From positions 62,001 through 126,000 of the forward strand of contig NZ_JAATJG010000012.1 of assembly GCF_011927765.1 (NCBI RefSeq): a DNA stretch of 64,000 nucleotides. Direction: 5' to 3'. Every line of letters begins with the position of its first letter. Positions within the stretch are counted from its first letter, which is position 1. A model generated the notes under the pieces. The model worked only from the letters and a program-made list of their open reading frames with translations. It was not told where the DNA came from and searched no databases. This DNA is from Wenyingzhuangia aestuarii. Lineage in GTDB: Bacteria > Bacteroidota > Bacteroidia > Flavobacteriales > Flavobacteriaceae. Of this stretch, positions 6,954 to 47,220 are shown in pieces. Both the position numbers and the translations under genes were made by a program.

Positions 6954-7018
6954 CAAACCTACTTGAGAATCTTAAATCTTACGTCTCTGTAAGTACAACT
7001 AAGTTTCTTCTTCGTACA
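6954..7018 (-). promoter_or_regulatory. Promoter with tandem 21-bp operator for GH110
   Basis: On the + strand: -7-like box CAAACCTA (6954-6961; TAGGTTTG on the coding strand), proximal element GTCTCTGTAAGTACA (6983-6997) and distal element TTTCTTCTTCGTACA (7004-7018). The elements start 22 and 43 bp from the box end. The box is 25 bp from the ATG. Confidence 0.6.
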
Positions 7019-7050
7019 TTTCTAGACTACAAAAAGCTAAATTTCTACTC

Positions 7051-8646
7051 TTATGAGTTTTTTTGGATCAATTTATTTACTTGTTCCTTTATTTTCTTGT
7101 TATCATCCTTAGCTAAATCCATATACTTATTTAAATCTTTGGCTAGCTTTACAATTACTTTTTCATATTTTTTATCATCTATAAAGTTGACCAACTCATC
7201 CGGGTCTGCTTCAATATCAAACAACCAAGGTTTTCCACTATACATTACACTTAATTTGTATCTGCTAGTAATAGCAGCATAGTATCCTAAACGAGAAAAA
7301 GTAACATCATCCCAATTAGCAGGTAGCTTGTTTTGAAATAACGGAGTAATATCTCTACCAGCAACTTTAGGGCAATCAATATCTAACAAACTTAAAAATG
7401 TTGGCATCCAGTCTGTATTGTTTGCTGCTAAATTAACTACTTTTTTTCTTGGAATTAAAGGGTTTTTATTGTTCTGTCCTTGTGCTAACACAAATGGAAT
7501 TTTAGCAGATGCTTCGTGAATAGTTCCTTTGTTTACACGTCCGTGTTCTCCTAATAAATCTCCATGATCTGATGAGAACATTACAATTGTATTTTCAAAA
7601 ATTCCTTCATCTTTTAATTTCTGAATGATGCGACCTACATTTTCATCTACAATTTTTACCATTCCCAAATATTGTTGAATACTCTTTTTTAACTTTTCTT
7701 CATCATTGGTTTTGTTATCTGGACTTTGCCATTTAGGTAATTTTGCTTTGTTTTCAAAAGCATATTTGTACGTTTTAGGTAATTCTACTTTTATATTATT
7801 GTATAAAGTATCATATGGAGTTCTTGCTATATCTGGTGTGTGTGGATCTGGAATACTTACCACATAAAAGAAAGGTTTATTTTTATTATCCGCTATAAAC
7901 TCAACAGCTCTGTCTCCCAACCAATCTGTTGTAAATTTTACGTTTTTAGATTTTTTATCTTGATAGATAGGTTGACCATATTTGTCTTTACCTAATAATT
8001 TAGGATTTTTGGCTGCATAATAAGGATTTCCATTAGCATCCATTCCTTTAAACTTATCATGTCCTCCGTTAAACATAAATCTTTTGTCTTGGAATCCATA
8101 ATTATCAGAAGGAACTCCTGTTGGATATGGAGACCACCATTCATCATGGTCTTTATTACCATCTGCAGACCTACTTTCTGCCAAATGCCATTTTCCAGAA
8201 TACCCTGTCATATACCCTGCTCCTGTTAACACATCTGCAATAGTGGTTACATCAGGTTTTAAATATTTACCATCTCCTTTTTTATTAGAATTGTTAGGTA
8301 TTCCTAAAGTCATAGGATACATTCCTGTAAACATAGAGGCTCTAGAAGCTGTACAAACCGCAGCACTACAGTACATTCTATTAAAAATAGTTCCATTTTC
8401 TGCCAAAGCATCAATATTGGGAGTTTTTATAACAGCATCTTTTCCCCACTGCAATGCTTGCTCAGGAGTTAATTGATCTCTGTAACAACTTAGAGTTCTA
8501 AAATTATGTTCGTCTGTAATAATCCAAATTACATTTGTTTTTTTTGTTTGCTGAGCATAACTCTTAACTCCTGTAAATCCAATCATCATACATAATTGAA
8601 CTACATATAAAAGATTCCTTTTTATCATAATTGTTTTTCCTTTCAT
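7051..8646 (-). CDS. S1 family sulfatase (arylsulfatase-like)
   Basis: 531 residues with signal peptide (...KSYAQ). S1 hallmarks are visible: N-terminal metal-binding WIITDEHN, the nucleophile signature C98-TASR with Cys to be converted to formylglycine, followed by ASMFTG, and the later FSSDHGDLLGEHG metal/sulfate site. The signature has Ala instead of the commoner Pro two residues after Cys (C-x-A-x-R), which is tolerated by formylglycine-generating enzymes. It hydrolyses a sulfate ester, here most likely on carrageenan oligosaccharides; which position (G2, D2 or D6) is not deducible. An alternative start is M7 (8628). It appears as a single-gene unit with its own operator, while the terminator of the upstream GH2 operon lies in its leader. 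Confidence 0.9.
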   Translation of the reverse strand: MKGKTIMIKRNLLYVVQLCMMIGFTGVKSYAQQTKKTNVIWIITDEHNFRTLSCYRDQLTPEQALQWGKDAVIKTPNIDALAENGTIFNRMYCSAAVCTASRASMFTGMYPMTLGIPNNSNKKGDGKYLKPDVTTIADVLTGAGYMTGYSGKWHLAESRSADGNKDHDEWWSPYPTGVPSDNYGFQDKRFMFNGGHDKFKGMDANGNPYYAAKNPKLLGKDKYGQPIYQDKKSKNVKFTTDWLGDRAVEFIADNKNKPFFYVVSIPDPHTPDIARTPYDTLYNNIKVELPKTYKYAFENKAKLPKWQSPDNKTNDEEKLKKSIQQYLGMVKIVDENVGRIIQKLKDEGIFENTIVMFSSDHGDLLGEHGRVNKGTIHEASAKIPFVLAQGQNNKNPLIPRKKVVNLAANNTDWMPTFLSLLDIDCPKVAGRDITPLFQNKLPANWDDVTFSRLGYYAAITSRYKLSVMYSGKPWLFDIEADPDELVNFIDDKKYEKVIVKLAKDLNKYMDLAKDDNKKIKEQVNKLIQKNS

Positions 8647-8651
8647 TAAAA

Positions 8652-8693
8652 AAGAGCTTCCCTGTACTAACCAAATACAAATGGGAAGCTCTT
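8652..8693 (-). terminator. Terminator of sulfatase-GH2 operon, within the leader of the next gene
   Basis: Perfect 11-bp repeat AAGAGCTTCCC/GGGAAGCTCTT with a 20-base loop, followed on the minus strand by a T run. It sits between the inferred promoter at 8717-8781 and the sulfatase ATG at 8646, so it could also attenuate that gene. Confidence 0.75.
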
Positions 8694-8716
8694 AACCTTT
8701 TAATAATAACTTATTA

Positions 8717-8781
8717 TAAAAGTAAAAAGATGAAAAAGTTTTAATGTCGCAGAAAATTTTTATTAAGTCTTTCTGAGTACA
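8717..8781 (-). promoter_or_regulatory. Promoter with tandem operator for sulfatase 7051-8646
   Basis: Box TAAAAGTA (8717-8724), proximal element GTCGCAGAAAATTTT (8746-8760, poor) and distal element GTCTTTCTGAGTACA (8767-8781, strong). Spacing is again 22 and 43 bp. The box is 71 bp from the ATG, further than in the other units; CAAATACA at 8672-8679 is an alternative box. Confidence 0.5.
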
Positions 8782-8796
8782 TATATCATGTTCTAA

Positions 8797-11700
8797 TTAA
8801 TTGATTAATATCTCATCAATAAGAACACCTTTATTCTCTATAGTTTCTAAAACAATTGTATTGGCTCCTCTTTCTAATTGAATAGGCAGTTTTACTTTGT
8901 TCCAAAAGTTACCTGTGTTGCGAGTGTTTCTTAAAAACAATTTGTTTTGAACTACTTTGCCATTAACAATTACTTTAATGTATGTTCCTGGAGCATTGTT
9001 GTATTTACCGCTGTAACGTATAAACAAATCAGCCTCTCCGGCTCCTCCATCATTTTCTTGATACCATTCTAAACTTGCTCCAACTACATTATCTAGTTTT
9101 ACATAACCTTTACCTCTTACCAAAGTCTTTTTTTCTATAACTTTTCCTTTGATAATTTTGGCATCTTCGGCTTGTTCTCCTGCAATTACACGTTCTCCAG
9201 TATTTTTGTTCCAAGTAAATCCTAATTTCTTAGAAAACCTTTCTTCTAAAACCTGAACATTTTTTCCGTTTAAAACAATTAATGCTTTTACCGTGGTTTC
9301 TAAAGGAACTTCAAAACTGTTGGTATATAAGTTTGATTTTCTTGTAGGAGTTGTTCCATCCGTAGTATAATAAATTTGAATATCTGTTTTTGGTTTTTTA
9401 CCTCTTAACACCAATACGTCCGTGTCTATACTTACTTTATTAGAGGTAATTTGTTTTTTTTCTCCCAAAATACAACTTGCTAACAAAGCTATATCTCCAT
9501 TTGCATTGGTAGATTCTATAAAAGCTCTTGTTAATCCGTAAAAGGCTATTCTATTGTCTGGCCCCACATGTTGTTCTACATCTACAGGACTTCCGTTTCC
9601 TAAAGCTTTAATTTTTCCTGCTCCAATTACATTAAAATAGGTTCTATTTTCTCCGTAAGGATAAAATTCTCCTTTAGCATCTGTAGTAGTTACACGTACT
9701 TGTACAATGTCATTATTTTTATTTTCCAAAGATTCTCCATCTACCGATAATTTTATTTGACTAGGAACATCAGCAGTTCTAATAACTTTTTCTGTTATTT
9801 GTTTTCCATTTTTATATCCTACCGCTTTTAAAGTTCCTGGCTGCCACTTTACCATCCATTGGCATTGCATTTTTAACCATTCTTTATCTGGTTTTTGTTT
9901 TCCTAAAGATTTATCATTAAAAAACAATTCAACCTCATCGCAATTTGAGTATACCCATACTGGAATTTCAGTATCTAGAGCAACTTTAGGATGTGTCCAA
10001 TGCGGTAAAATATGTACCATTGGTTTAGTTGTCCACTGACTTTGATACAAATAATACAAATCTTTTTCAAAATTTGATAAATCTATTGCTCCTCCCATAA
10101 AAGCTTTAAAAGGCCAACCTCCGTGTACATATCCAGCTTCTCCAATATAATCGTGACCTGTCCAACGGAAAGAACCGGCATATGCTGGAATATCTCTTAT
10201 TTGAGCAATATTTAAACGAGATGATACTCGTACCATGGCATTATCATAACTAGAATTAAATATTTGCTTGTGATTGGTTCTGTTTAATTCATCTATCCAA
10301 TCATGTGTAAACACTTCTTTTTCTGTTAAATCTGGTAATGCGTAAGGTTTTTGTTTTTTACTAGGATATCCATCTCTAAACCAAGTTTTGGTTCTGTAAT
10401 ACCCTCTTACTTGCCAAGTATGTGTGTTTTCTGTACCAATAAAAACTTTACCGTTTTGCTCTTCTTCTATATGATCAAAAAATCCTTTTTTCTCACTATG
10501 CCCATTCACTCCCAAAACATCCATATATTCTGAACCTGAATGTCCTGAAGTTACCGGACGAGTATTATCTAATTCATGACAAGTTTTTACTAGTTCTGCA
10601 CCAATTTCTCCTTTGGTTTCGTTTCCAACACTATAAATAATAACCGATGGGTGATTTCTATCTCTTTTGACCCAATCTGTTAAATCTTGCTTCCACCATT
10701 TATCAAAAAATCTACCTCCATAATCTTCTGGAGCTTTTTCCATCCATCCATCAAAAATTTCATCCATTACCAACATTCCTAATTCATCACAGATATCGTA
10801 AAAAATTGGCGTTTGAGGATTGTGTGAAGTTCTAATAGCATTAACCCCCATATCTTTTAATTGCTGAATTCTATAACGAATAATTTTATCGGGAACTGCG
10901 GCTCCTAAAGGCCCTGCATCTTGATGATTACAAACTCCTTGTAATTTTACATTTTTTCCGTTGATCCAAATTCCAGACTCTGCTACCCATTTTACGTCTC
11001 TAACTCCAAACTTTGTTTTTACAATATCTACCACTTTTCCCTTTACCAATACTTCTGATACTAACGTATACAAATAAGGTGCTCCTGGATTCCATAGCTT
11101 AGGATTTTCAATTTTTAATTGATGATCGATAGTATTTTGAACTCCATTTACTGCTTTTAATTTTTCTGAAGTAGTTACAACTTTAACTCCTTGTGCGTTT
11201 ACAATAGAAGTTCTTAAAGTAGCTCTTACTTTTTTAGAATCTCCTGTATTATTTATATCCGTAGTTACTAAAACTTTGTTTCCTTCGGTTCTTACAAAAA
11301 CACCATCTCTAGCTATATTTACTTTGTTTTTTACATCAATCCAAGTATGAGAATAGATTCCACTCCCTGTATACCATCTTGCTGATGGTTGCTTGTCATT
11401 ATCTACTCTTACCGCAAAAGTAATTTTATCAGATTTTTGAGCAATTTCACTAATATCATACGCAAAAGAAATCCATCCATAAGGTCTATTTCCCAGTTTA
11501 ATTCCATTTGCCCAAACTGTACTATTCATAAAAACTCCTTCAAAAGCAATTTCTACTTGTTTTTCTTTCCATTCTTTAGGAACCGTAATGGTTTTTCTAT
11601 ACCAACCAAAACCTGCAGGTAAATATCCACATTTATCTCCCATAGGATTGCTTTCATCATATTCCCCCTCAATACTCCAATCGTGAGGTAAATTCAGTGT

Positions 11701-11844
11701 TTTCCAATCTGTATCCTTATAATTAATTTGCTCAGCACCTGTTACGTCTTGCTGTACAAATTTCCAATCTTTATCAAAATTGATATGCTGTTGGCTGTAT
11801 ACAGAAATAGCAAACAACAAAATAATTAACTTATAAAACTTCAT
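8797..11844 (-). CDS. GH2 beta-galactosidase with C-terminal accessory domains
   Basis: 1015 residues, signal peptide (...SVYSQ). The GH2 sandwich, immunoglobulin-like and TIM-barrel modules are in order; acid/base is E409 in YSVGNE and the likely nucleophile E472 in IGTEN. Beyond the usual DUF4982-type domain there is a chitobiase/FN3-associated domain (YYTTDGTTPT) and a terminal CBM6/35-like jelly roll. GH2 members remove non-reducing beta-linked galactose; in this locus it would act on the beta-1,4-linked G residue exposed by GH110. It is the second gene of an operon, 15 bp after the sulfatase at 11860-13290, and is followed by a strong terminator. Beta-glucuronidase or other GH2 activities cannot be excluded by sequence, but the context favours galactose. 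Confidence 0.88.
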   Translation of the reverse strand: MKFYKLIILLFAISVYSQQHINFDKDWKFVQQDVTGAEQINYKDTDWKTLNLPHDWSIEGEYDESNPMGDKCGYLPAGFGWYRKTITVPKEWKEKQVEIAFEGVFMNSTVWANGIKLGNRPYGWISFAYDISEIAQKSDKITFAVRVDNDKQPSARWYTGSGIYSHTWIDVKNKVNIARDGVFVRTEGNKVLVTTDINNTGDSKKVRATLRTSIVNAQGVKVVTTSEKLKAVNGVQNTIDHQLKIENPKLWNPGAPYLYTLVSEVLVKGKVVDIVKTKFGVRDVKWVAESGIWINGKNVKLQGVCNHQDAGPLGAAVPDKIIRYRIQQLKDMGVNAIRTSHNPQTPIFYDICDELGMLVMDEIFDGWMEKAPEDYGGRFFDKWWKQDLTDWVKRDRNHPSVIIYSVGNETKGEIGAELVKTCHELDNTRPVTSGHSGSEYMDVLGVNGHSEKKGFFDHIEEEQNGKVFIGTENTHTWQVRGYYRTKTWFRDGYPSKKQKPYALPDLTEKEVFTHDWIDELNRTNHKQIFNSSYDNAMVRVSSRLNIAQIRDIPAYAGSFRWTGHDYIGEAGYVHGGWPFKAFMGGAIDLSNFEKDLYYLYQSQWTTKPMVHILPHWTHPKVALDTEIPVWVYSNCDEVELFFNDKSLGKQKPDKEWLKMQCQWMVKWQPGTLKAVGYKNGKQITEKVIRTADVPSQIKLSVDGESLENKNNDIVQVRVTTTDAKGEFYPYGENRTYFNVIGAGKIKALGNGSPVDVEQHVGPDNRIAFYGLTRAFIESTNANGDIALLASCILGEKKQITSNKVSIDTDVLVLRGKKPKTDIQIYYTTDGTTPTRKSNLYTNSFEVPLETTVKALIVLNGKNVQVLEERFSKKLGFTWNKNTGERVIAGEQAEDAKIIKGKVIEKKTLVRGKGYVKLDNVVGASLEWYQENDGGAGEADLFIRYSGKYNNAPGTYIKVIVNGKVVQNKLFLRNTRNTGNFWNKVKLPIQLERGANTIVLETIENKGVLIDEILIN

Positions 11845-11859
11845 CTGTTAGGTTGATTG

Positions 11860-13290
11860 TTAAAATTTAAAGATGCTACTTTCACTTCTAGCATCCATCA
11901 TTATTTGTTGAATTTTAGCCACAACTTCTGGATGCTCTTTTGCTACATTTGTTGTTTCAAATTCATCCTTTTCTAAATTGTACAATTCTATTTTGGCCTT
12001 TGGATTGTTAATTGCTTTGTAAATCACCCCTTTCCATTTTCCTAAACGAACCGCTTTACGACCACCTTTAATATTAAATTCCCAATACAAATATTCATGT
12101 TCTTTTTGATTGTTTTGATTTAACAAAGTAGGTAAAAAAGAAATTCCATCACTCTGCTTTGGTGTTTCTACTCCAACAATATCTGCAAGCGTTGGCATTA
12201 CATCCCAAAAAGCAGAAACATGATTGGTTACCACTCCTTCTTTAATTTTTCCAGGCCAAGAAGCTACAAAAGGTGCACGAATTCCACCTTCATACAAATC
12301 TCTTTTAATACCTCTTAAACCTGCTGTACTGTTAAAGTATGCTGGGTTGGCTCCACCGGCATCATGCGCACCATTGTCACTTGTAAACATAATAATGGTA
12401 TTATCTTCTAATCCTAACTCTTTTACTTTTGCTACAATTTGCCCTACGTATACATCCATTCTATCTACCATAGATGCAAAAACAGCAAAAGGTATTTCTT
12501 GTGTACAATATTTATACTCTACAATGTTAGGTCCGTAATCCGATGAATAAGGATGATCCTTGTATGGAACCTCATCAAACTTGCCTATGTATTTTTGTAA
12601 AATAGAATCTTTGGGTGATATCAATTCGGCATGTGGCAATACAAAAGGGACATAAGCAAAGAATGGTTTTTCTTTGTTATCCTCTATAAATTCTAATGTT
12701 TTTTCCTGAATTTTATCTTGCGCATAAATCACTGTATTTGTCCAATCGTTTCCTTTTAAAGAATCAACTCCCTGATTATGATTTAAATAAGGTGGGTAAT
12801 ACCTGTGTGCTAATTTTTGATCGTTATAACCATAAAATTCATCAAACCCTTGTTTATTAGGATCTCCCTCTCCAAAACCTAAGCCCCATTTCCCAAACAT
12901 TCCAGTAGTATATCCTACTTGTTTTAACATTTCGGCAATAGTAATAGAACTTGCTGGTAAAGGAATTTGACCTCCATGCGCAACATCTTCTTTGTTTCCT
13001 CTAATGGGTGTGTGGCCAGTGTGTTGACCTGTTATTAAAGAAGATCTTGACGGAGCACAAACAGCAGATCCGCTATAGTGTTGTGTAAATTTAATTCCAT
13101 TTGTTGCCAAAGCATCAATATTGGGCGTTTTAAACCTTTTTTGACCATAAGTACTTAAATCTCCTATTCCTAAATCATCCGCTAAAATATAGATGATATT
13201 GGGCTTTTTATGAATTGTTGTTTCTGTTCTTGTTTTGGCTTTGCAAGCTCCTAGCAATAATACAATTGCAAAATATTTAAGTTTACTCAT
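11860..13290 (-). CDS. S1 family sulfatase, lipoprotein
   Basis: 476 residues. The N-terminus (LLLGAC) looks like a lipobox, suggesting membrane anchoring. S1 features: IYILADDLG metal site, signature C78-APSR with SLITG following, and FTSDNGAHD. It is of the arylsulfatase-A-like type with the downstream GIRAPF...WPGKI block and resembles the protein at 23574-24965. Formylglycine maturation is needed; no maturase is in the window. First gene of a two-gene operon with the GH2 at 8797-11844, implying that its product is directly handed to that beta-galactosidase. Substrate position is inferred only. Confidence 0.92.
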   Translation of the reverse strand: MSKLKYFAIVLLLGACKAKTRTETTIHKKPNIIYILADDLGIGDLSTYGQKRFKTPNIDALATNGIKFTQHYSGSAVCAPSRSSLITGQHTGHTPIRGNKEDVAHGGQIPLPASSITIAEMLKQVGYTTGMFGKWGLGFGEGDPNKQGFDEFYGYNDQKLAHRYYPPYLNHNQGVDSLKGNDWTNTVIYAQDKIQEKTLEFIEDNKEKPFFAYVPFVLPHAELISPKDSILQKYIGKFDEVPYKDHPYSSDYGPNIVEYKYCTQEIPFAVFASMVDRMDVYVGQIVAKVKELGLEDNTIIMFTSDNGAHDAGGANPAYFNSTAGLRGIKRDLYEGGIRAPFVASWPGKIKEGVVTNHVSAFWDVMPTLADIVGVETPKQSDGISFLPTLLNQNNQKEHEYLYWEFNIKGGRKAVRLGKWKGVIYKAINNPKAKIELYNLEKDEFETTNVAKEHPEVVAKIQQIMMDARSESSIFKF

Positions 13291-13316
13291 TATTAAATAA
13301 AATTATTTTATAAGGA

Positions 13317-13381
13317 CGAAGTTCTAAAAATAGCATACCATAAATGTCACCTAGCGTTTATACTTTGTTCTTGTTAGTAAC
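13317..13381 (-). promoter_or_regulatory. Putative promoter/operator for sulfatase-GH2 operon
   Basis: Degenerate box CGAAGTTC (13317-13324), proximal GTCACCTAGCGTTTA (13346-13360), distal GTTCTTGTTAGTAAC (13367-13381); same 22/43-bp geometry, box 27 bp from the ATG. The box is poor. Confidence 0.4.
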
Positions 13382-13432
13382 TAAAAGCACTATTTTTACA
13401 CATGCAAGCACTTAGTAAATATAAACAAAGAA

Positions 13433-13459: not shown

Positions 13460-13512
13460 ACAATCACTTATTTTGATAATCTCTATTAATTATGAATCAC
13501 TAAAAAAAAAGA

Positions 13513-16247: not shown

Positions 16248-16312
16248 CTAATATTCCTTTTTGTTTAACTTGATTTGTGTTTAGGCATCCATAAAATGTC
16301 TTATTCAGTATT
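16248..16312 (-). promoter_or_regulatory. Weak tandem operator candidate for GH150-like gene
   Basis: Box CTAATATT (16248-16255, poor), proximal GTGTTTAGGCATCCA (16277-16291), distal GTCTTATTCAGTATT (16298-16312). Spacing agrees with the other units, but the box match is weak. Confidence 0.3.
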
Positions 16313-20355: not shown

Positions 20356-20400
20356 CAGTTCTATGTAGTGTTTAGTATTGATTTTGTGTACTTAAATTTC

Positions 20401-26396: not shown

Positions 26397-26461
26397 CGAA
26401 GAAAATAAAATATGAGTAATAAAATATATCTGTGAGTTAAATAGATGTCGCTGTAAGTACT
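26397..26461 (-). promoter_or_regulatory. Putative promoter/operator for two-sulfatase/GH-D operon
   Basis: Degenerate box CGAAGAAA (26397-26404), proximal ATATCTGTGAGTTAA (26426-26440), distal GTCGCTGTAAGTACT (26447-26461, strong). Box lies 22 bp from the ATG. Confidence 0.5.
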
Positions 26462-28314: not shown

Positions 28315-28379
28315 CAAATCTACCTATCTATTAAAATGAAAATGTAGCTATGTATACAAAAAATGTATGTATGCTTATT
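28315..28379 (-). promoter_or_regulatory. Promoter with tandem operator for SASA esterases
   Basis: Perfect box CAAATCTA (28315-28322; TAGATTTG on coding strand), proximal GTAGCTATGTATACA (28344-28358), distal GTATGTATGCTTATT (28365-28379). The box is 19 bp from the ATG and fixes the start. Confidence 0.6.
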
Positions 28380-37368: not shown

Positions 37369-37433
37369 TAAAACTAAAGCTATCTTGTTTTTTTTGTGTT
37401 CATGTCCGTTTACATAAAGTCTCTATGAGTACA
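37369..37433 (-). promoter_or_regulatory. Promoter with tandem operator for redox operon
   Basis: Box TAAAACTA (37369-37376), proximal GTTCATGTCCGTTTA (37398-37412), distal GTCTCTATGAGTACA (37419-37433, strong). A third GAGTACATT occurs at 37447-37455, about 20 bp further. Confidence 0.6.
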
Positions 37434-37473
37434 TCTATGAACAAACGAGTACATTCTTAACTTTATTTAATGA

Positions 37474-38635: not shown

Positions 38636-41563
38636 TTAATTTAAAGGGGAACTTAATTGAATGTCTATAAAACGGAAACCTCCACAAGGGATTTCTACGG
38701 TTACAGCATCTTTATTTGCCAAATTATAACTAGTATGATCTAAAATATCTTGCATAGAAGTAGGGTTCGCTTTTTGAAACTTTACCACTGCAGTTCTATC
38801 CTTTGGATTTAAATAACCTCCATCAATAATTGTTAATCTTAAATTGGTTGGTGAGGTTTGTGCCACAGTCCATGCAACATCTCCAGAAACCGTTAATGGC
38901 AACTCTTTTGCACCTTCTTTTATTTCGTTTTCTATAGTTGTATAATATTCATCAGCATTAAATGTTTGAGTTCCATCTGCTGAATAGTAATACCTTCCAT
39001 CTGTATAATATTCCTTTAAAACATCTTTATAAATTGGGTGTAAATTATTTTTTAACAATCCTCTAGAAGCGCTTACATCTGTATGAGCACCTGCTTGCGG
39101 AGGAGTAATTAACACCAATCCGTTAGGGTAATTTGGCAAATAATTTTGTCTTCTATCCTTTACATTTCCTGCATAGGTAGAAAAATCCCAAGGAGTATTT
39201 TTTGCTGCCATCCAATTGGCATTTTGTCTGCTAAACACAAAAGGATTGTTGTTAATAAAAGCTTCATCATAATGAGTTGCCCATTTTAAACTACTTCCTT
39301 CTACCAAAAAGTCTTCATCTGGCTCCAACATACTAATATGTACTGGCGAAACACTTAGTAATTCATTTGGCTTAGGTACAAACAAAGCTCCTTTAGCTAC
39401 TAGTTCCCAAACAATACTCATATAATCTGGATCTACAGCAAAATTATTAATGTACGTTGCTCCATTAGACATGTGATAAATTAAATGACGTAAAAAATGA
39501 TTCGGCAATCTTTGATGACAAAATTGTCTAGATCTATCGTAACTAGGATTGTCTGGAACTGTTCTTGTTCCCCAATTGTTTACCGCTCCACTTGCCCAAA
39601 TACCAACTCTACTGGCTACACTAATATCCATAGCCTTATCCGTAGTTTCTTCCATAGAAGGCACAAAAACATCGGCATATGCTCCGGATAACAAACCACT
39701 CCACATTGGCAAATACACATTGGCTTGCCAAAAATTGTGTTTGGTTCTTACAAAAATATTTGCGTTTTTAGTTTTTGCATAATCGGCTAAAGGATAAAAC
39801 AAATCATTCATTACCCATTCAAAATCTGCAGAATGATCTTCTAATTCAGGATAAATTAATACTGTTTTTTTACCATTTGCATAATCTAATATTTGCTTAG
39901 TAGTTTCTAACTGAAACATGTAAGGATCATTTCCGTGACCTCCCCAATACGCAATTCCTTTATCTCCATTTGGAGTTTCATCATACCAAGCTGTAATATG
40001 ATCTATAGCTCCTTGTTGGGTTAAGGTATAATCTCTACGACTATCTCTTTTGTTCATGTACTTGGTATTCCCCATACTAGAACGATCCCAGTTTTCTGCT
40101 TGCCCCATATGACTACCTCCTAAAAACACAGGCGATTCATAATTGTTTCTAATATTATTGGCCGTAGTTTTAGCAATACCTTCGCTTGTATTTTCTGTCA
40201 TTAACAATACTTCTCTGGCTTCTCTTTGTGTAGATGGTTTTGTATAAGATGCCAAGTTGGTTCTAATAGCAGCCGTATTGTCTAATATTTGTTTAATTTT
40301 TCCTGTAGGAATTAATTCTTGATAGGCAGTTTTCCAATCTGGATTACCTGTATCCATAATATGAATTTGACTACCTCCACTCTGAGAACTCGCAAAAATT
40401 ATTTGATTGGAGTTTGGCTTTTTCCACATATCGTAATACGAATACTTAGTTTCTAACTTTTCTTCGCTTGTAGCCTCTAAATCTTTATTTACCAATACAA
40501 TTTTATTTCCCACTAAAAAGAAATACTTTTCAGTAGCCACATCCGTAATTAATTCTGGTTGTACCACAGAGTATCCAAAACCTAATTTGGTTAATTTGTA
40601 TTGATCTGTAGTATCATCTATTAAATTTAAACGAGATACATTGGCACTATTTTGATGATTAGATGCTCCTAATAAAATTTCAGAATTCCCATCGTTATCA
40701 AAATCTGAGAATCTTAATTCTCCTATAGGGCTTGTAGCTTCTGTTTCTACTCTTTTAATAGGATTATCTTCTAAAACATCAAACACATAAATTGCACCTC
40801 TATCTTGTGATGGATTGTTACTTGCATGCATGATTAAATAATCATTAGTAGCATCTTTTTTTAGAGGTCTTAAAAAGTTTGCATAATGTACATTATCTTT
40901 TGCAGTGGTGGTTCCCCAAGTTTTTTCTTGCGAATAATCTGCAGATTTTAATTCTTTAACCAATGCACCTGTGCTTGATAGGTAATAACAATTTAAATCT
41001 AAGCTACCACAAACAACATAAGAAACTCCGTTTTTTTGAACCACAGCAACAGAATACATAGGCACTTCATTTTTTTGATAATGCCACAACTCTATTCCAT
41101 TTGCATCTATACAATAAATAGTTCCATCTGCATTGGCTACCAAAACTTCGTCATTCCCATCACCTGTAAGGTCTGCACACCACATGTCGTGCACCATAAA
41201 TCCTGATAGTAGATTTTTCCAAAGAATGACTCCATCAAAACCAACAGCCATTACAATTCCTTCGTATGAACTTGCTATAATTGTAGTTCCATTTTGGTAG
41301 GTAGCTGTTCTAACTTTATGAATGGTATGATTGGTTTCTATACTATAAATAGCTCCTAGCTCATTTGCAATAGCATTATTAGGGACACTATATTTTAAAG
41401 ACTCTAAACCTTGAGCAGATTTGCTTGAAGTAAAACTCCATAAATTGGTTTCGCTTGTTTTCCAACTAGCAGATTGTTCTTCAAAATTGTATGTTTTTTG
41501 AGAAAACATAAGAGTATTACTTGCAAACAGCAATACTATTAAAAAGTAGTTTTTTAAATCCAT
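38636..41563 (-). CDS. GH150-like lambda-carrageenase with N-terminal binding segment
   Basis: 975 residues, signal peptide (...LMFSQ). After a short lectin-like stretch (~22-65, YNFEEQSASWK) comes a beta-propeller (DLTGDGNDEVL, DFDNDGNSEILLGAS) and then the putative catalytic part: AYWGGHGNDPYMF, IYPELEDH, PSMEETTDK, RTVPDN, and the C-terminal GGFRFIDI. It is strongly similar to 41683-44499. Endo-cleavage of beta-1,4 linkages to neo-lambda-carrabiose oligosaccharides is inferred from architecture. No T9SS tail or lipobox is seen, though it is cotranscribed with a T9SS protein. Operator at 41595-41659 and an overlapping terminator. Confidence 0.65.
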   Translation of the reverse strand: MDLKNYFLIVLLFASNTLMFSQKTYNFEEQSASWKTSETNLWSFTSSKSAQGLESLKYSVPNNAIANELGAIYSIETNHTIHKVRTATYQNGTTIIASSYEGIVMAVGFDGVILWKNLLSGFMVHDMWCADLTGDGNDEVLVANADGTIYCIDANGIELWHYQKNEVPMYSVAVVQKNGVSYVVCGSLDLNCYYLSSTGALVKELKSADYSQEKTWGTTTAKDNVHYANFLRPLKKDATNDYLIMHASNNPSQDRGAIYVFDVLEDNPIKRVETEATSPIGELRFSDFDNDGNSEILLGASNHQNSANVSRLNLIDDTTDQYKLTKLGFGYSVVQPELITDVATEKYFFLVGNKIVLVNKDLEATSEEKLETKYSYYDMWKKPNSNQIIFASSQSGGSQIHIMDTGNPDWKTAYQELIPTGKIKQILDNTAAIRTNLASYTKPSTQREAREVLLMTENTSEGIAKTTANNIRNNYESPVFLGGSHMGQAENWDRSSMGNTKYMNKRDSRRDYTLTQQGAIDHITAWYDETPNGDKGIAYWGGHGNDPYMFQLETTKQILDYANGKKTVLIYPELEDHSADFEWVMNDLFYPLADYAKTKNANIFVRTKHNFWQANVYLPMWSGLLSGAYADVFVPSMEETTDKAMDISVASRVGIWASGAVNNWGTRTVPDNPSYDRSRQFCHQRLPNHFLRHLIYHMSNGATYINNFAVDPDYMSIVWELVAKGALFVPKPNELLSVSPVHISMLEPDEDFLVEGSSLKWATHYDEAFINNNPFVFSRQNANWMAAKNTPWDFSTYAGNVKDRRQNYLPNYPNGLVLITPPQAGAHTDVSASRGLLKNNLHPIYKDVLKEYYTDGRYYYSADGTQTFNADEYYTTIENEIKEGAKELPLTVSGDVAWTVAQTSPTNLRLTIIDGGYLNPKDRTAVVKFQKANPTSMQDILDHTSYNLANKDAVTVEIPCGGFRFIDIQLSSPLN

Positions 41564-41569
41564 AAAAAA

Positions 41570-41623
41570 ATGTTGTTACTAATTATTCAGCATCTAAAGA
41601 TACCTGCTAACTAGCAACAACAT
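41570..41623 (-). terminator. Terminator of GH150-like gene 41683-44499, overlapping next promoter
   Basis: 16-bp inverted repeat (41570-41585 with 41608-41623) with two G-U pairs on the minus-strand RNA and a T run after it. Its 22-base loop contains the -7 box of the next gene (41595-41602). Confidence 0.75.
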
Positions 41624-41659
41624 GATTTTGTACGTATATATAATGTGCTTTTTAGTACA
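41595..41659 (-). promoter_or_regulatory. Promoter with tandem operator for GH150-like gene 38636-41563
   Basis: Box TAAAGATA (41595-41602), proximal GATTTTGTACGTATA (41624-41638, weak), distal GTGCTTTTTAGTACA (41645-41659). The box is 32 bp from the ATG. Confidence 0.5.
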
Positions 41660-41682
41660 AAAAACACTTATCTAACTTATTC

Positions 41683-44499
41683 TTATTTAAGTGGTTTGCT
41701 CAACTCAACATCAATAAATCTAAATCCTCCTAAAGGAATTTCTATTTGACTCGCTGAATTTGAAACCTTAAATTTTTCTAAACTTAACACATCTGTAAGC
41801 CCAACTGGTTTTATAGTATTAAACTGTACTACGGCTGTACTCTTTTTAGGGTTAATATAACCATTGTCTATTAACGTTAACCTTAAATGCGTTGGTGAAG
41901 TTTGAGCTACTACCCAAGCCACATCTCCAGAGACGGTAATTGGAATTTTTTTAGCTCCTTCTTTAATAGCTGTTTCTACTACTTTGTAATATTCATCTGC
42001 CTTATAAGTTTGTTTTCCATCAGCAGAATAATAATTACGACCATCGGTAATAAACTCTTTTAAAATATTTTTATAAACAGGATGTAAATTGTCTTTTAAC
42101 AAACCTCTTGGAGCATCTGTGTTAGCAAACACACCTTGTTGAGGCGGAGTAATTAATACTAAACCATTATGATAAGGAGCTAAAAAGTTTACTCGTCTTT
42201 CTTTTACCCCTGCTGCATATCTAGAAAAATCCCAATTGGTAACTTGTGCTCCTGGCCAAGAACCATTCATTCTACTAAACACAAAAGGATTTTTTTTCTC
42301 AAACTCTTCATCGTAAAAAGTGGTCCATTTCACATTAGCTCCATCGTTTAAAAAGTGATGATCTGGTTTTTTCATACTAACATGAACTGGCGATAAACTT
42401 AAAATTTGATTACGCTTAGGCACATACAAAGCTCCTTTAGCTATTAACTCCCAATAGATACTCATATAATCTTGATCTATTGAAAAGTTGTTAATAAACT
42501 GAGCTCCGTTAGAAGTATGGAAAATTAACATTCTTAAAAAATGACTTGGCAGTCTTTGGTAACCTAACTGACGAGCTCTGTCTATAGAAACATTGTCTGG
42601 AACAGCACGAGTTCCCCAACCGTTTACAACACCACTTGTCCACATTCCCATTCTACCTGCCAAACTAAACTCCATAGTTTTATCGGTAGTTTCTTCCATA
42701 GAAGGAACAAATACATCGGCAAATTCTCCAGACATTAATCTAGACCACTCACTTAAATAATTAGATCCTAACCAAAACACATTTTTATTTCTTAAAAACA
42801 CGTTAGTATTTTTACCTTTTGCATAAGTAGCTAAGGGATACATTAAATGATTGGTTAAAAAACTTAAATTTTCTGGATTATGATCTTCTACTTCCGGATA
42901 AATTAACACTGTCTTTTTTCCATCTGCTTTGTCTATTACTTTTTTTGTAGTTTCTAAACTAAACATAAAAGGATCGTTACCATGTCCCGCCCAATAAGCA
43001 ACTCCAGGCTCTCCATTGTATTCTTTTGTTATAGTTTCTACGGCTTGTTGCTGTGTTAACGTATATTTTTTTCTTCTATCTCTTGCTTTTTTATACTTCG
43101 CGTTTTCAAAACTAGATCTATCAAATTTTTCTACATTTCTTAAAAATATAGAGTTTAAAAAGATTGGGTTTTGATACTTTTTATCAATCTTATTTTTTAG
43201 ACTTACTAAATTATCTGGTACACCTTCTGTCATTAAAAACACAGATTCTGATTGGTTTTGCCATGTTGGTTTCTCAAAATCTTTTAAGTTTTTAGCCACT
43301 AAAGCTCTTTCTTCAATAATACTTTCAATTTTTCCTTTTGGACGTAAAGTAGTAAACTTCTTTTTCCAATCTTTTTGATGAACATCTATTACATGAATAC
43401 AACTACCTCCACTTTGAGCACTAGCTAATAATATTTTATCGGCATTAACGTCTTTCCATAAATCATTGTAAGCATACGTTCCTTCTAGTTTTTCTTCTTT
43501 TGTAAGATTATTAGCAGTATACAGTCGTATTTGACTTCCTGCTCTACTTAAAAAAGTGTCATCATTAATTAATACTGTATGTACAATATCGTATCCAAAT
43601 TTTACTTTATTGATTTGTTTAAACTGAAACATATCATTTTGTAAATCATAAGTAGACACCAACAAATCGTTTACATGTGCCGAAGCTCCCAGAATTACAT
43701 CTTGATTACCATCGTTATTAACATCTGTAATTTCTACATGTCCAATAGGCCTGATTCTGATTTTTTTCTTTAAATCTTTAGTGGCTTGGATGGTTGTTTT
43801 TTTGAAAGGAATACTCTCTAAGGGATTAAAGAAATACATGGTTCCAGGCACATTCATATGATTGTTACTTCCTAAAACCAACAACACCTCTGTACCATCT
43901 GATTTTTTAATAGGTCTTATAAAATTGGCAGCACACTCATTGCTTTTAGGCATTTCCTTTTTGTACTTACTCCATGGTTTTTCTATAGAAAAAGTAGAAG
44001 AGTGAATGGTTTTTAACAATGCTCCTTTAGGAGATAAATAATAAATATTTTTATCAAAACCACCAGCAACCACATAAGATTCCTTTCCGTCTTTAAGAAC
44101 CGTAACAGCATACATAGGAGCATCGTTCTTTTTAAAACTCCACAGTAATTTTCCTTTATAATCTAAACAATAAACAGAACCATCTGCATTGGCAACTACA
44201 ATTTCATCTTTACCATCATTGTCTAAATCTCTACACCACAAATCGTGATTCATAAAACCAGACAACTTGTTTTCCCATAACTTTTTACCACTGTAAGAAA
44301 CTCCAATTACAGTACCTTCAAAACTACTACCTACAATGTATGATTCTTGTTTATTTAAGGCTGTTCTTACCTTGGTAATTGTATAATCAGTTTCTATGCT
44401 ATACAAAGCTGATTTTGTATCTACCTTTTGGGCTTTTGTTGTATACGATAGCAACAACAAAGCTATACAGAATGGAATAAAGACTCTAAATGATCTCAT
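41683..44499 (-). CDS. GH150-like lambda-carrageenase
   Basis: 938 residues from the ATG at 44499. The frame is open to 44544, but the -7 box is at 44523-44530 and MRSFRVFIPF...TKAQ is a normal signal peptide, so 44499 is chosen. Propeller repeats (DLDNDGKDEIVVANADG, DVNNDGNQDVILGAS) precede the putative catalytic region: AYWAGHGNDPFMF, IYPEVEDH, PSMEETTDK, RAVPDN, GGFRFIDV. The full-length match with 38636-41563 shows gene duplication; it lacks the lectin-like N-terminal segment of that protein. Putative endo-lambda-carrageenase. Invariant acidic residues among the three copies (YPE, EDH, EET) are candidate catalytic positions. No sorting tail seen. Confidence 0.65.
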   Translation of the reverse strand: MRSFRVFIPFCIALLLLSYTTKAQKVDTKSALYSIETDYTITKVRTALNKQESYIVGSSFEGTVIGVSYSGKKLWENKLSGFMNHDLWCRDLDNDGKDEIVVANADGSVYCLDYKGKLLWSFKKNDAPMYAVTVLKDGKESYVVAGGFDKNIYYLSPKGALLKTIHSSTFSIEKPWSKYKKEMPKSNECAANFIRPIKKSDGTEVLLVLGSNNHMNVPGTMYFFNPLESIPFKKTTIQATKDLKKKIRIRPIGHVEITDVNNDGNQDVILGASAHVNDLLVSTYDLQNDMFQFKQINKVKFGYDIVHTVLINDDTFLSRAGSQIRLYTANNLTKEEKLEGTYAYNDLWKDVNADKILLASAQSGGSCIHVIDVHQKDWKKKFTTLRPKGKIESIIEERALVAKNLKDFEKPTWQNQSESVFLMTEGVPDNLVSLKNKIDKKYQNPIFLNSIFLRNVEKFDRSSFENAKYKKARDRRKKYTLTQQQAVETITKEYNGEPGVAYWAGHGNDPFMFSLETTKKVIDKADGKKTVLIYPEVEDHNPENLSFLTNHLMYPLATYAKGKNTNVFLRNKNVFWLGSNYLSEWSRLMSGEFADVFVPSMEETTDKTMEFSLAGRMGMWTSGVVNGWGTRAVPDNVSIDRARQLGYQRLPSHFLRMLIFHTSNGAQFINNFSIDQDYMSIYWELIAKGALYVPKRNQILSLSPVHVSMKKPDHHFLNDGANVKWTTFYDEEFEKKNPFVFSRMNGSWPGAQVTNWDFSRYAAGVKERRVNFLAPYHNGLVLITPPQQGVFANTDAPRGLLKDNLHPVYKNILKEFITDGRNYYSADGKQTYKADEYYKVVETAIKEGAKKIPITVSGDVAWVVAQTSPTHLRLTLIDNGYINPKKSTAVVQFNTIKPVGLTDVLSLEKFKVSNSASQIEIPLGGFRFIDVELSKPLK

Positions 44500-44522
44500 T
44501 TTATAAATTTTATATTGAGTTC

Positions 44523-44587
44523 CAAAGAAATTCATTTTTAACATATATAATGTCTTCTTTAATATATGATTTGTACTTATTTATACA
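44523..44587 (-). promoter_or_regulatory. Promoter with tandem operator for GH150-like gene 41683-44499
   Basis: Box CAAAGAAA (44523-44530), proximal GTCTTCTTTAATATA (44552-44566), distal GTACTTATTTATACA (44573-44587). Box 24 bp from the chosen ATG. Confidence 0.55.
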
Positions 44588-44588
44588 A

Positions 44589-44618
44589 AAAACCCTTTGA
44601 GATATCTCAAAGGGTTTT
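44589..44618 (-). terminator. Terminator after the 180-residue binding protein
   Basis: 13-bp stem AAAACCCTTTGAG/CTCAAAGGGTTTT with a 4-base loop and flanking A/T runs. Confidence 0.9.
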
Positions 44619-44638
44619 TATTCTAATTTTTATTTTAG

Positions 44639-45181
44639 TTACTGTGCAGACACAATAGATAAATCATCTATATAAACAGCTCCAGAACCTGATTTTGGAA
44701 GGGCAAAAAAGCTAATTGACAACCAGTTCCCTTTTGAATCTTCATCAACATTTATAGTTGTTGTTAATGTGTGCCATTTGTTAACCTCTAATCCATCAAG
44801 CTTTTGAAACTCTGCAACCACCTTTGGCTTACCTGATAAAGAAATACTTAAATACCTTGGTACTTCCCCTTCTATATATACTTTTACAGATACCGTATAA
44901 GTTCCCTTTGCAATGTTAAATTTACCTGGAGATACATTTTTACCTCTAAAAGATTGCAACTTTGGTCCATTTCCCTTAACACTAGCATAATCTGGAAAAT
45001 CCGCTTTCATACTCTTTTTTCCACTTGCTACTTGCTCTGTACTACTAGAGAAACCTCTTACTTGTGTCCAATTTTCTGGAGATCCGTTTTCAAAATCAAA
45101 AGAAGCTTTGTTGTAGTTTGTTTGTGCGGTTACCAATCCTGTAATTAAGATTGTAAATAGAGTTGCTAATTGTTTTTTCAT
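44639..45181 (-). CDS. Small secreted carbohydrate-binding-like jelly-roll protein
   Basis: 180 residues, signal peptide (...GLVTAQ). A single beta-sandwich domain with FDFENG...WTQVRGF, SMKADFP, KLQSFRGK and the final VYIDDLSIV. It is homologous to the larger proteins at 45336-46148 and 46307-47125 but has no T9SS tail, so it is probably periplasmic or released. No catalytic motif. By position in a PUL and fold type, a glycan-binding role is inferred. Own operator and terminator. Confidence 0.7.
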   Translation of the reverse strand: MKKQLATLFTILITGLVTAQTNYNKASFDFENGSPENWTQVRGFSSSTEQVASGKKSMKADFPDYASVKGNGPKLQSFRGKNVSPGKFNIAKGTYTVSVKVYIEGEVPRYLSISLSGKPKVVAEFQKLDGLEVNKWHTLTTTINVDEDSKGNWLSISFFALPKSGSGAVYIDDLSIVSAQ

Positions 45182-45208
45182 TTTTAAAAATTTTGATTAG
45201 TATTTCTG

Positions 45209-45273
45209 CTAAACTATAAACATTAGTAAACTAACCTGTGTTTACTAATAAAAAACATGTGTTTCTGTGTTCT
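45209..45273 (-). promoter_or_regulatory. Promoter with tandem operator for 180-residue binding protein
   Basis: Box CTAAACTA (45209-45216), proximal GTGTTTACTAATAAA (45238-45252), distal GTGTTTCTGTGTTCT (45259-45273). An overlapping inverted repeat TTAGTAAAC/GTTTACTAA lies at 45223-45248. Confidence 0.5.
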
Positions 45274-45284
45274 TTAAAAGAAAA

Positions 45285-45312
45285 AAAAGCCACTGAATAA
45301 ACAGTGGCTTTT
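45285..45312 (-). terminator. Terminator after 45336-46148
   Basis: 11-bp stem AAAAGCCACTG/CAGTGGCTTTT with a 6-base loop. Confidence 0.9.
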
Positions 45313-45335
45313 TAGATAAAAAAAACTATCTAAGA

Positions 45336-46148
45336 TTACAAAACAACTTTAATAGCATCTTGTTTTCCATTTTTTGATATTTTAACAATATACACTCCAC
45401 TAGCTAAACCAGAAGTAGCTACTTGCTGACCCGTGATAGAATACACTGCATCTAAATTTGCTCCTGTAACATTAATAGAACCGTTTTCTGCTTTTACAGA
45501 AGCTCCATCTATTTTAGACAAAGAAGTTGATAAAGTAGTTGTTTGAACTACTGAGACATCATCAAGATATATTTTAGCATTAATTGTTGGTAAAGTCGCA
45601 AAATTAACAGAACACCAATAATCAGCACCATCTCCTTCAGTAAAATCAAAACTTTTACTAAAAAGAGTCCAAGTACCTGGTGTAACAGAATTTAAGTTAA
45701 TAGTTGCTTGCTCAAATTGACCACCATTTTTTTGAATATTTATTTTAAAAGTTCCGTCAGTTACAACATCAACATAAACATACCCCATAATAGTATAATT
45801 AACATCAGAACCTGCATCACTATCAAAGTTAAAATTTCCTTCTTTATTTGTATTTGATCTCCATGTTTGTAATTTTGGTGTAGCAACTGGAATTGTAGTT
45901 GAAAAATCTGCCAACATACTGTAAGTACCTGTACGGGCTTGTCCATTTGATTGTTCAAAACCATCTACTTGTGTCCAAGCATCTACAATATTTCCTGGAG
46001 ATGAAGCTCCATTGTGAGTTCCATTACTAGTCCATTCAACACTAATAGGTTCAAAACTAAATGCATTTGCGTTAAAATTTGTTATTTGAGCTTTTGCTCC
46101 AAAAGCAAATAAAAGTACAGCTGAAATTTTAAGTAATTGTTTTTTCAT
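45336..46148 (-). CDS. T9SS-sorted carbohydrate-binding-like protein
   Basis: 270 residues, signal peptide (...FGAKAQ), one jelly-roll domain (~25-205: FSFEPISVEW, WTQVDGFEQ, PKLQTWRSN, IYLDDVSVV), then a type A T9SS sorting domain from ~215 (LSKIDGASVKAENG, VYSITGQQV, SGVYIVKI). A surface-displayed, non-catalytic glycan-binding protein by architecture. The C-terminal ~65 residues are almost identical to those of 46307-47125, while the binding domains have diverged. Single-gene unit. Confidence 0.75.
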   Translation of the reverse strand: MKKQLLKISAVLLFAFGAKAQITNFNANAFSFEPISVEWTSNGTHNGASSPGNIVDAWTQVDGFEQSNGQARTGTYSMLADFSTTIPVATPKLQTWRSNTNKEGNFNFDSDAGSDVNYTIMGYVYVDVVTDGTFKINIQKNGGQFEQATINLNSVTPGTWTLFSKSFDFTEGDGADYWCSVNFATLPTINAKIYLDDVSVVQTTTLSTSLSKIDGASVKAENGSINVTGANLDAVYSITGQQVATSGLASGVYIVKISKNGKQDAIKVVL

Positions 46149-46180
46149 AATATTTAATATATGTTAGTTAATAGTAATTC

Positions 46181-46245
46181 CAAAATTATTAGTTTACACA
46201 AAAAGCTATGTACTTGTCCGTAAACCATTTGTGACTGTGCGTTAA
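46181..46245 (-). promoter_or_regulatory. Promoter with tandem operator for 45336-46148
   Basis: Box CAAAATTA (46181-46188), proximal GTACTTGTCCGTAAA (46210-46224), distal GTGACTGTGCGTTAA (46231-46245). GT occurs at 46210, 46220, 46231 and 46241, one per helical turn. Box 33 bp from ATG. Confidence 0.6.
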
Positions 46246-46251
46246 AAAACA

Positions 46252-46277
46252 AAAACCACTGCGTAAACAATGGCTTT
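46252..46277 (-). terminator. Terminator after 46307-47125
   Basis: 10-bp stem with two G-U pairs on the minus-strand RNA (AAAGCCATTG / CAGTGGTTTT), T-rich tail. Confidence 0.65.
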
Positions 46278-46306
46278 ATAAACAAATAATAAACTAAAAA
46301 ACAAGA

Positions 46307-47125
46307 TTACATAACTACTTTTACAGCATCTTGTTTTCCATTTTTTGATATTTTAACAATGTACACTCCACTTGCCAAACCAGATGTAGTTACTTGTTGA
46401 CCTGTAATAGAATATACTGCATCTAAGTTTGCTCCTGTAACATTAATAAAACCGTTTTCTGCTTTTACAGAAGCTCCTTCTATTTTAGATAAAGAAGTTG
46501 ATAAAGCCGAATCAAAAGCAACAACTACATCATCAATATATACTTGTCCGCTTGCAGGAATAGGTCCAAAACTTACAGTACTCCAGTAATCAGTACTTAC
46601 ATCTGTTCCTACAATAGGAAATACATACTCTAACAAAGTCCAATCTGCAGTTGTTATTTCTGTAGATAAATCCCAAACAGCAGTTTGTGTTGTTAAATCT
46701 TTTTTCTGAGAAGTAAATTTTAAAGATCCTGAAGGAGTACCTACAAATTTTACATATAAAGAAACTTTATAATTTCCCTCTCCTGTATAATCCCAGTTTC
46801 CCTCATTATTTTTATTAGACCTCCAGGTTTGTAATTTTGGTGTAACTGTTAATACATCAAAATCGGCTTTCATACTGTACACACCTGTTCTAACTTCTGT
46901 TGAACTTTGAGAAAAAGCCTCACCTCCTGCTAATGTTTGTGTCCAAGCTGTTACAATGTTACTTGGCGAAACTGCTCCAGTTCCTCCTGTGGAATTATTA
47001 CCACTAGTCCATTCAGTATCTGTTGGTTCAAAACCCCATGCACTTGTGTTAAAATTTGCTACTTGAGCATTTGCACTAAAAGCTATTAAAAAAATAGTAG
47101 ATACTTTAAGTAATTTTTTTTTCAT
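46307..47125 (-). CDS. T9SS-sorted carbohydrate-binding-like protein (paralogue)
   Basis: 272 residues, signal peptide (...FSANAQ), jelly-roll domain (WGFEPTDTEW, MKADFDV, PKLQTWRSN, VYIDDVVVA), then a type A T9SS tail (LSKIEGASVKAENG, VYSITGQQV). Tandem paralogue of 45336-46148. Separate promoters rather than one operon suggest high individual expression. Role as lambda-carrageenan-binding surface protein is inferred; no catalytic residues are apparent. Confidence 0.75.
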   Translation of the reverse strand: MKKKLLKVSTIFLIAFSANAQVANFNTSAWGFEPTDTEWTSGNNSTGGTGAVSPSNIVTAWTQTLAGGEAFSQSSTEVRTGVYSMKADFDVLTVTPKLQTWRSNKNNEGNWDYTGEGNYKVSLYVKFVGTPSGSLKFTSQKKDLTTQTAVWDLSTEITTADWTLLEYVFPIVGTDVSTDYWSTVSFGPIPASGQVYIDDVVVAFDSALSTSLSKIEGASVKAENGFINVTGANLDAVYSITGQQVTTSGLASGVYIVKISKNGKQDAVKVVM

Positions 47126-47155
47126 AATATTTGAATGTTATTTAATTTAAAACAA

Positions 47156-47220
47156 CAAAGTAACATCCAATAACAAACAGGCTTGTCTGTAGTAATAAAC
47201 AATATGTGTGCATCAATAAT
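47156..47220 (-). promoter_or_regulatory. Promoter with tandem operator for 46307-47125
   Basis: Box CAAAGTAA (47156-47163), proximal GTCTGTAGTAATAAA (47185-47199), distal GTGTGCATCAATAAT (47206-47220). Box 31 bp from ATG. Confidence 0.5.

Follow-up and report, generated by a model that had tools for sequence, protein, structure and literature searches.

We describe here a paired operator shared by twelve transcription units of a lambda-carrageenan utilization locus in the genome of the flavobacterium Wenyingzhuangia aestuarii (family Flavobacteriaceae). The locus lies on a 64,000-nucleotide stretch (contig NZ_JAATJG010000012.1, positions 62,001 to 126,000), hereafter the window, in which the enzyme genes are on the minus strand. 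Each operator consists of two 16-bp half-sites, approximately (G/T)TACTnAnARnnACAT, set in tandem at 21 bp, and a -7 promoter box stands at exactly +56 bp relative to the start of half-site 1. A first-pass annotation had pointed to a common paired element upstream of eleven units and, more weakly, of a twelfth (16209), with elements placed 22 bp and 43 bp beyond the box. The units were re-found by a blind motif search and, in 11 of 12 cases, by an independently trained model, and the two distances proved exact, being the same spacing as the +56 register. The paired-site pattern upstream of the twelve units is confirmed as real. As for the protein that reads it, sequence comparison inclines us, if only slightly, towards a hybrid two-component system (HTCS) of one clade, termed clade B, most likely the one encoded on a different contig of the same genome (HTCS-B, G000:C2:12961-17085), with which the HTCS resident in the locus (HTCS-A) may share the sites.

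Motif discovery by expectation-maximisation was run on the sense strand of every upstream region of 60 bp or longer between window positions 1 and 48500 (16 regions), with 16+5+16 columns and no -7 box information; the 21-bp period was imposed at this step and then tested separately. The resulting motif, gtACt.A.aaaCACat.......ATT..c.G..ACA., reached a log-likelihood of 156.8. Dinucleotide shuffling (40 runs) gave 93.7 +/- 5.1 (maximum 103.7), and background promoters drawn at random in sets of 16 (40 sets) gave 95.3 +/- 6.9 (maximum 110.1). In one motif search, the register used scored 438.5 and an alternative offset by two bases scored higher (463.5). A symmetric model (hereafter also the neutral model; threshold 10 bits), combined with a -7 box matching at 4/6 positions or better, returned 12 of the 16 window promoters, namely the eleven units of the first-pass annotation and 16209, and all twelve operators were returned by both this procedure and the window motif search. 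The regions before 4970, 21987 and 30730 fell below score under the symmetric model, and that before 20355 passed (15.3) with a box of only 2/6. Upstream of this last gene, a GH2 gene, a dyad at 20363-20399 scores 15.3 bits under the same model, 44 bp from the ATG and with no box at +56.

The independent model was begun from random starts; its training set was 175 promoters drawn from eight further genomes with GH150 genes in which no HTCS-A orthologue was found (A-lacking genomes). It converged on the same half-site (.TACt...AAatACAT......tAC.c..Aaa.ACA.). With a score of at least 12 bits, it recognized 11 of the 16 window promoters, at identical bases, whereas none of 143 background promoters reached 12 bits (maximum 7.6). 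Some training promoters from G383, a genome of the same genus, are orthologous to window promoters, and one is nearly identical. Under this model, half-site pairs occurred in 12/16 window promoters at a spacing of 21 bp and in 0-1 at every other spacing from 16 to 31. Antisense operator matches in the window numbered 0/16. In A-lacking genomes, half-sites 1 and 2 both settle on TAC...ACA, as befits a direct repeat; in the window, half-site 2 is less sharp. Under the symmetric model with the box included, background matches amounted to 2/143, 0/54, 0/27 and 0/50 promoters (2, 1, 0 and 3 on score alone), and one of the two matches in 143 probably corresponds to the SusC promoter at C2:25410. All 18 background stretches were kept: 4 contain two-mismatch matches of the first-pass element, L014 belongs to the HTCS-B locus, and an HTCS of a separate class, class C, is encoded in L028. 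Scanned across the whole genome, the lone 15-bp element failed as a signature, being barely enriched (137 matches at up to 3 mismatches vs. 95 for a reversed control), whereas the pair-plus-box pattern at up to 1 mismatch succeeded (25 vs. 3), 8 of the 25 matches being operators of this locus. Away from the locus, two pair-plus-box matches lie near the end of contig C3 (G000:C3:291264-291325 and 293349-293410), one of them upstream of a 624-amino-acid open reading frame (ORF) at 16.2 bits; no HTCS is on C3 among the matches listed.

The -7 box was unused in the fit. Matches of at least 5/6 to TAnnTTTG, the -7 element of primary promoters in Bacteroidota, stand at +56 in three promoter sets, comprising 9/15 window sites, 17/33 sites of relatives bearing an HTCS-A orthologue and 20/41 sites of A-lacking relatives; at offsets outside 55-57, such matches make up ~1%. 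Within the locus, nine of the twelve units have a box of 5/6 or 6/6, and the degenerate boxes remarked upon at first pass are those of 13290, 16209 and 26375, with only 4/6. Chance alignment in AT-rich promoters might be invoked in view of the GC content of 32% and these degenerate boxes. It is refuted by the empty background under the independent model, the restriction to spacing 21 and the box at +56, and we consider its probability to be close to nil. The conserved AC steps occupy columns 2, 12, 23 and 33 of the operator, and this is why the first-pass annotation saw GT dinucleotides every 10-11 bp, which are indeed present at 46210, 46220, 46231 and 46241. It had also placed the box 19-33 bp from the ATG in 10 of 11 units; the count stands, the measured gap is 18-32 bp, and unit 8646 has 70 bp. 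For the first unit, position 6929 is a TTG and the ATG lies at 6926. Among the four elements that it ranked best, GTCTCTGTAAGTACA is half-site 2 of its unit and the other three are half-site 1. In reports covering Flavobacterium and Bacteroides, respectively, the -7 box was mapped at -12 to -5 (PMC9723704) and a -33 element is known (PMC7366714). With the box at -12 to -5, half-site 1 would span -68 to -53 and half-site 2 -47 to -32, on the -33 element. The operators, with scores under the independent model, are as follows.

6954..7017, minus strand: operator of unit 6926/6929 (GH110); half-site 1 7002-7017, half-site 2 6981-6996, box 6954-6961 TAGGTTTG; found by the motif search and symmetric model, weak here (4.6 bits).
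8717..8780, minus strand: operator of unit 8646 (sulfatase); half-site 1 8765-8780, half-site 2 8744-8759, box 8717-8724 TACTTTTA; 19.6 bits.
13317..13380, minus strand: operator of unit 13290 (sulfatase, GH2); half-site 1 13365-13380, half-site 2 13344-13359, box 13317-13324 GAACTTCG (4/6); 20.5 bits.
16248..16311, minus strand: operator of unit 16209 (lambda-carrageenase-like); half-site 1 16296-16311, half-site 2 16275-16290, box 16248-16255 AATATTAG (4/6, weak); 13.2 bits.
26397..26460, minus strand: operator of unit 26375 (sulfatases); half-site 1 26445-26460, half-site 2 26424-26439, box 26397-26404 TTTCTTCG (4/6); 27.5 bits.
28315..28378, minus strand: operator of unit 28296 (two SASA esterases); half-site 1 28363-28378, half-site 2 28342-28357, box 28315-28322 TAGATTTG; 21.6 bits.
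37369..37432, minus strand: operator of unit 37346 (sulfatase); half-site 1 37417-37432, half-site 2 37396-37411, box 37369-37376 TAGTTTTA; 23.0 bits.
41595..41658, minus strand: operator of unit 41563 (GH150); half-site 1 41643-41658, half-site 2 41622-41637, box 41595-41602 TATCTTTA; 17.5 bits.
44523..44586, minus strand: operator of unit 44499 (GH150); half-site 1 44571-44586, half-site 2 44550-44565, box 44523-44530 TTTCTTTG; 14.6 bits.
45209..45272, minus strand: operator of unit 45181 (weak CBM_4_9 match); half-site 1 45257-45272, half-site 2 45236-45251, box 45209-45216 TAGTTTAG; 18.0 bits.
46181..46244, minus strand: operator of unit 46148; half-site 1 46229-46244, half-site 2 46208-46223, box 46181-46188 TAATTTTG; 22.6 bits, exact match of the whole-genome pattern.
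47156..47219, minus strand: operator of unit 47125 (weak Por-secretion tail match); half-site 1 47204-47219, half-site 2 47183-47198, box 47156-47163 TTACTTTG; 15.3 bits.

Several of these promoters have features of their own. Unit 37346 has a third half-site-like copy, GTACTCGTTTGTTCAT (window 37437-37452), which precedes half-site 1 by 20 bp instead of 21. In sulfatase unit 8646, a strong terminator-like hairpin (window 8654-8691; -26 kcal/mol, z -6.2) stands between the -7 box and the ATG and covers the start codon when folded. Its stem pattern has no other copy in this genome; W. heitensis, as far as compared, starts directly after the shared leader, without such a hairpin. With the alternative ORF start 44544, the box of unit 44499 would fall within the ORF.

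In the mechanism that we propose, each of the twelve promoters would carry a tandem site bound by the AraC-type DNA-binding domains of an HTCS. In AraC-family structures, the two helix-turn-helix motifs of a domain enter successive major grooves. Two DNA-binding domains could thus each insert two such motifs into successive major grooves, and the four AC steps, one helical turn apart on one face of the DNA, would each be read by one motif. From its place at -33, the phosphorylated HTCS may then bring in RNA polymerase, as in class II activation, and lambda-carrageenan degradation would be switched on unit by unit. A PDB search with the DNA-binding domain returned relatives that include an HTCS (12aw), Rns, XylR and AraC. 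The first-pass suggestion of AraC-type tandem half-sites ending at -33 agrees with the 21-bp direct repeats predicted for HTCS operators of Bacteroides, and the sites are found at HTCS-linked loci and are rare in background.

The enzymes encoded in the window include two full GH150-type lambda-carrageenases, one lambda-carrageenase-like protein, GH110, GH2, GH43, SASA esterases and many sulfatases. No SusC/SusD was found among the 31 window proteins scanned. The candidate binder encoded within the window is the following gene, at the end of the locus and on the same strand as the enzyme genes.

1041..4970, minus strand: HTCS-A gene (Reg_prop, Y_Y_Y, HisKA, HATPase_c, Response_reg, HTH_18), with sensor, kinase, receiver and AraC-type domain all in one chain; candidate binder, its own upstream region showing no operator.

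The first-pass annotation named HTCS-A as the natural binder. This is not established, because operators occur in genomes without an orthologue and the DNA-binding domain of HTCS-A falls outside the clade that accompanies them. Among the genomes searched, W. heitensis has an HTCS-A orthologue at 81%, Ochrovirga pacifica one at 70%, and three genomes further removed have orthologues at 51-52%. None was found in G383, G323, G084, G072, G168 or G237 (best matches 30-35% identity), yet operators are present there; the notion that the operator occurs only where HTCS-A occurs was accordingly dropped. In G383, 21 window genes stand in nearly the same order in a largely colinear locus, with 16 of 18 enzymes at 76-95% identity and the two GH150 enzymes at 64 and 70%. 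The G383 locus lacks HTCS-A and has SusC/SusD and a different HTCS at the opposite end. Operators are found at 7/12 orthologous units (5/12 when the window-only matrix is used, threshold 12 bits); one G383 gene is the counterpart of two of the twelve units. Operators thus appear to have been retained despite a different local regulator, which is seemingly new in the literature.

By the neutral model plus box, the A-lacking genomes gave 13/36 (G383), 9/17 (G323), 7/15 (G084), 4/20 (G168), 4/13 (G237), 3/20 (G072), 2/27 (G036) and 1/27 (G388) promoters. Since these genomes trained both the A-lacking matrix and the neutral model, their scores with those are circular; the non-circular figures are those of the window-only matrix, with 7 sites in G383, 7 in G323, 5 in G084, 2 each in G072, G388 and G036, and 1 each in G168 and G237 (15 bits). 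Outside the pooled sets are L218 (0/3), L203, L212, L213 and L214 (3/8 and 2/4 at 15 bits), and G002B (0/11), G051 (0/9) and G397B (0/9), all three at 15 bits. Best-hit orthologues of at least 50% identity were also tested with the window matrix at 12 bits. Operators precede 8 of 9 mapped units in W. heitensis (7 with box 4/6) and 6 of 8 in Ochrovirga (4 with box), and conservation is poor in distant relatives (2/7 in G334, 1/4 in G002). The 13290 operator is present before its orthologues in W. heitensis and Ochrovirga and not in G383, G334 or G002; that of 26375 is present in G383, G397, G180 and G334 and not in G002. The 28296 site is identical in G383, where the whole promoter is nearly identical. 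At 41563, the aligned W. heitensis site is nearly identical, and the Ochrovirga site has diverged and lies at equal distance from its -7. A second GH150 pair in this genome (C8:60613 and 63683; G000:C8:50001-90000, L175/L176), near a class-C HTCS, had 0/8 promoters with an operator at 12 bits.

In a tree of 42 receiver-plus-DNA-binding domains, clade B comprises 15 rows (100/100), split from HTCS-A and class C. It takes in HTCS-B, two paralogues of this genome on C13 and C9, and the HTCSs of operator-bearing loci. A near-full-length HTCS-B relative of at least 44% identity is present in all 14 GH150-bearing genomes searched (the weak-GH150 genome G246 was outside the search), and 11 of the 14 are in the tree, each with a clade-B row. 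The helix-turn-helix domain of the HTCS resident in G383 is 71% identical to that of HTCS-B and 30% to that of HTCS-A. HTCS-B lies beside SusC/SusD, and the adjoining SusC (C2:17513-20620) is this genome's closest relative (69%) of the SusC of the G383 locus. Operators (10 bits, box 4/6) occur at the clade-B loci of this genome, in 5/9 promoters on C13, 2/20 on C9 and 2/10 on C2; the two on C2 precede SusC genes beside HTCS-B, at distances of 296 and 287 bp. Near class-C HTCSs the count is 0/121 promoters (10 bits), which rules out a general HTCS operator; a free motif search in class-C promoters gave only GC-rich dyads, taken as structural RNA genes, and was uninformative on class-C operators. 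The presence of operators in A-lacking genomes, the split of clade B in the tree and the 0/121 near class C are among the grounds for favouring a clade-B HTCS, and HTCS-B appears at least as good a candidate as HTCS-A.

Several observations weigh against this preference. HTCSs usually control their own locus; HTCS-B is encoded on another contig, and the one present in this locus is HTCS-A. Next to HTCS-B, the operators of two SusC genes are weak (12-13 bits), and a third SusC gene in that stretch (C2:4171-7257) has no operator (2.5 bits). In the Ochrovirga stretch that encodes both HTCSs, a single site was found among 36 promoters; at 15 bits, the stretches covered of G051, which has both A and B, gave 0/9, and one GH150 stretch of G002 gave 0/11. 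Sites are also few in G388 (1/27) and G036 (2/27). In addition, T precedes ACA in 16/66 A-bearing vs. 45/86 A-lacking operators (nominal p 5e-4, picked post hoc); of 32 such column tests only one survives correction (0.045). This slight base preference in A-bearing genomes could be a tuning to A.

That HTCS-A is the sole reader of the twelve operators seems to us unlikely. Its position at the locus end on the same strand speaks for it, as do the slight base preference in genomes with close A orthologues and a helix-turn-helix domain 100% identical to that of W. heitensis when the sensor is only 72% identical. The HTCS-B domain is conserved at 99% between the same species, however, so that conservation does not discriminate, and the column differences are too weak for an A-specific operator sequence; both were rejected as means of telling A from B. 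The same operators in the largely colinear G383 locus and in other lambda-carrageenase loci of genomes with no A orthologue, and the placement of the A domain outside clade B, argue against A as the sole reader. A possible, if doubtful, compromise is that two HTCSs of different clades, A from the enzyme cluster and B from the SusC/SusD neighbourhood on another contig, have converged on one operator class, as one regulon with two sensors. The operators would then have persisted within the genus while one resident regulator was replaced by another, with SusC/SusD and a clade-B HTCS in G383 and HTCS-A here.

AraC-type sites can be tandem, and a stand-alone AraC-family activator might therefore read the sites. 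Such a factor, CgrA, governs a carrageenan locus of Zobellia (PMC5698469), and a relative of it would be an example. We regard this as improbable: no stand-alone AraC factor was found among the 31 window proteins scanned, to which the search was confined, the operators track clade-B HTCS loci across genomes, and the 21-bp repeat is the form predicted for HTCSs.

Some SusC-like genes have an operator 137-416 bp upstream of the start (4/12 at 12 bits, and two beside HTCS-B; L192, L161, L226, L197, L200+L014), from which long leaders would follow. Upstream of the SusC gene 4171-7257 (L200), a ATCAAAAT(A/T)GTACT element was seen by eye twice, ~80 bp apart, and similar words precede an Ochrovirga SusC (L162); the pair recalls the long-spaced SusR-type repeats of 67 or 77 bp described in PMC3878776. 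At the boundary of the locus is a tRNA-Gln gene (window 48494-48565). A similar tRNA-like sequence also lies beside the GH43 orthologue in Ochrovirga (L164), and the tRNA-Gln may mark an old insertion point.

With half-sites 21 bp apart and the -7 box at +56, one HTCS class of marine Flavobacteriaceae now has a tested promoter grammar. Such a grammar can predict which genes respond to a given seaweed polysaccharide, correct start codons and join transporter and enzyme clusters across contigs, and it suggests that the nearest HTCS need not read the operators of a locus, contrary to a common assumption in annotation. In the araI1-I2 site of E. coli, two AraC half-sites likewise recur at a 21-bp interval, and the downstream half-site overlaps the -35 region; our operators differ from it in domain partner, sigma factor and sequence. 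For Bacteroides thetaiotaomicron, HTCS operators were predicted as direct repeats with an average distance of 21 bp over 16 HTCSs, HTCS_Man having 16-bp sites with a 5-bp spacer and related HTCSs having related motifs (Ravcheev et al., 2013; PMC3878776); for one of that set, BT0366, shift assays were reported (PMC5061871). Our operators share with these the 21-bp direct repeat upstream of polysaccharide-locus genes, a likeness of form. They differ in bacterial class and substrate, and a rigid distance to -7 is not stated for the Bacteroides sites in the text available. The carrageenan regulon of Zobellia galactanivorans also has a locus without SusC/SusD, the pair being elsewhere in the genome, but it concerns kappa/iota-carrageenan and the stand-alone CgrA, and no operator motif is described in the accessible part of that report (PMC5698469). 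In the open-licence literature searched, as far as its text was available, only PMC3878776 was found to describe 21-bp HTCS repeats, and neither a fixed -7 registration nor operators kept across different resident HTCSs were described. This kind of operator is therefore known from the Bacteroides predictions; what appears to be new is its exact -7 registration in Flavobacteriaceae, and the occurrence of such an operator in a marine class, for lambda-carrageenan, with strong comparative support.

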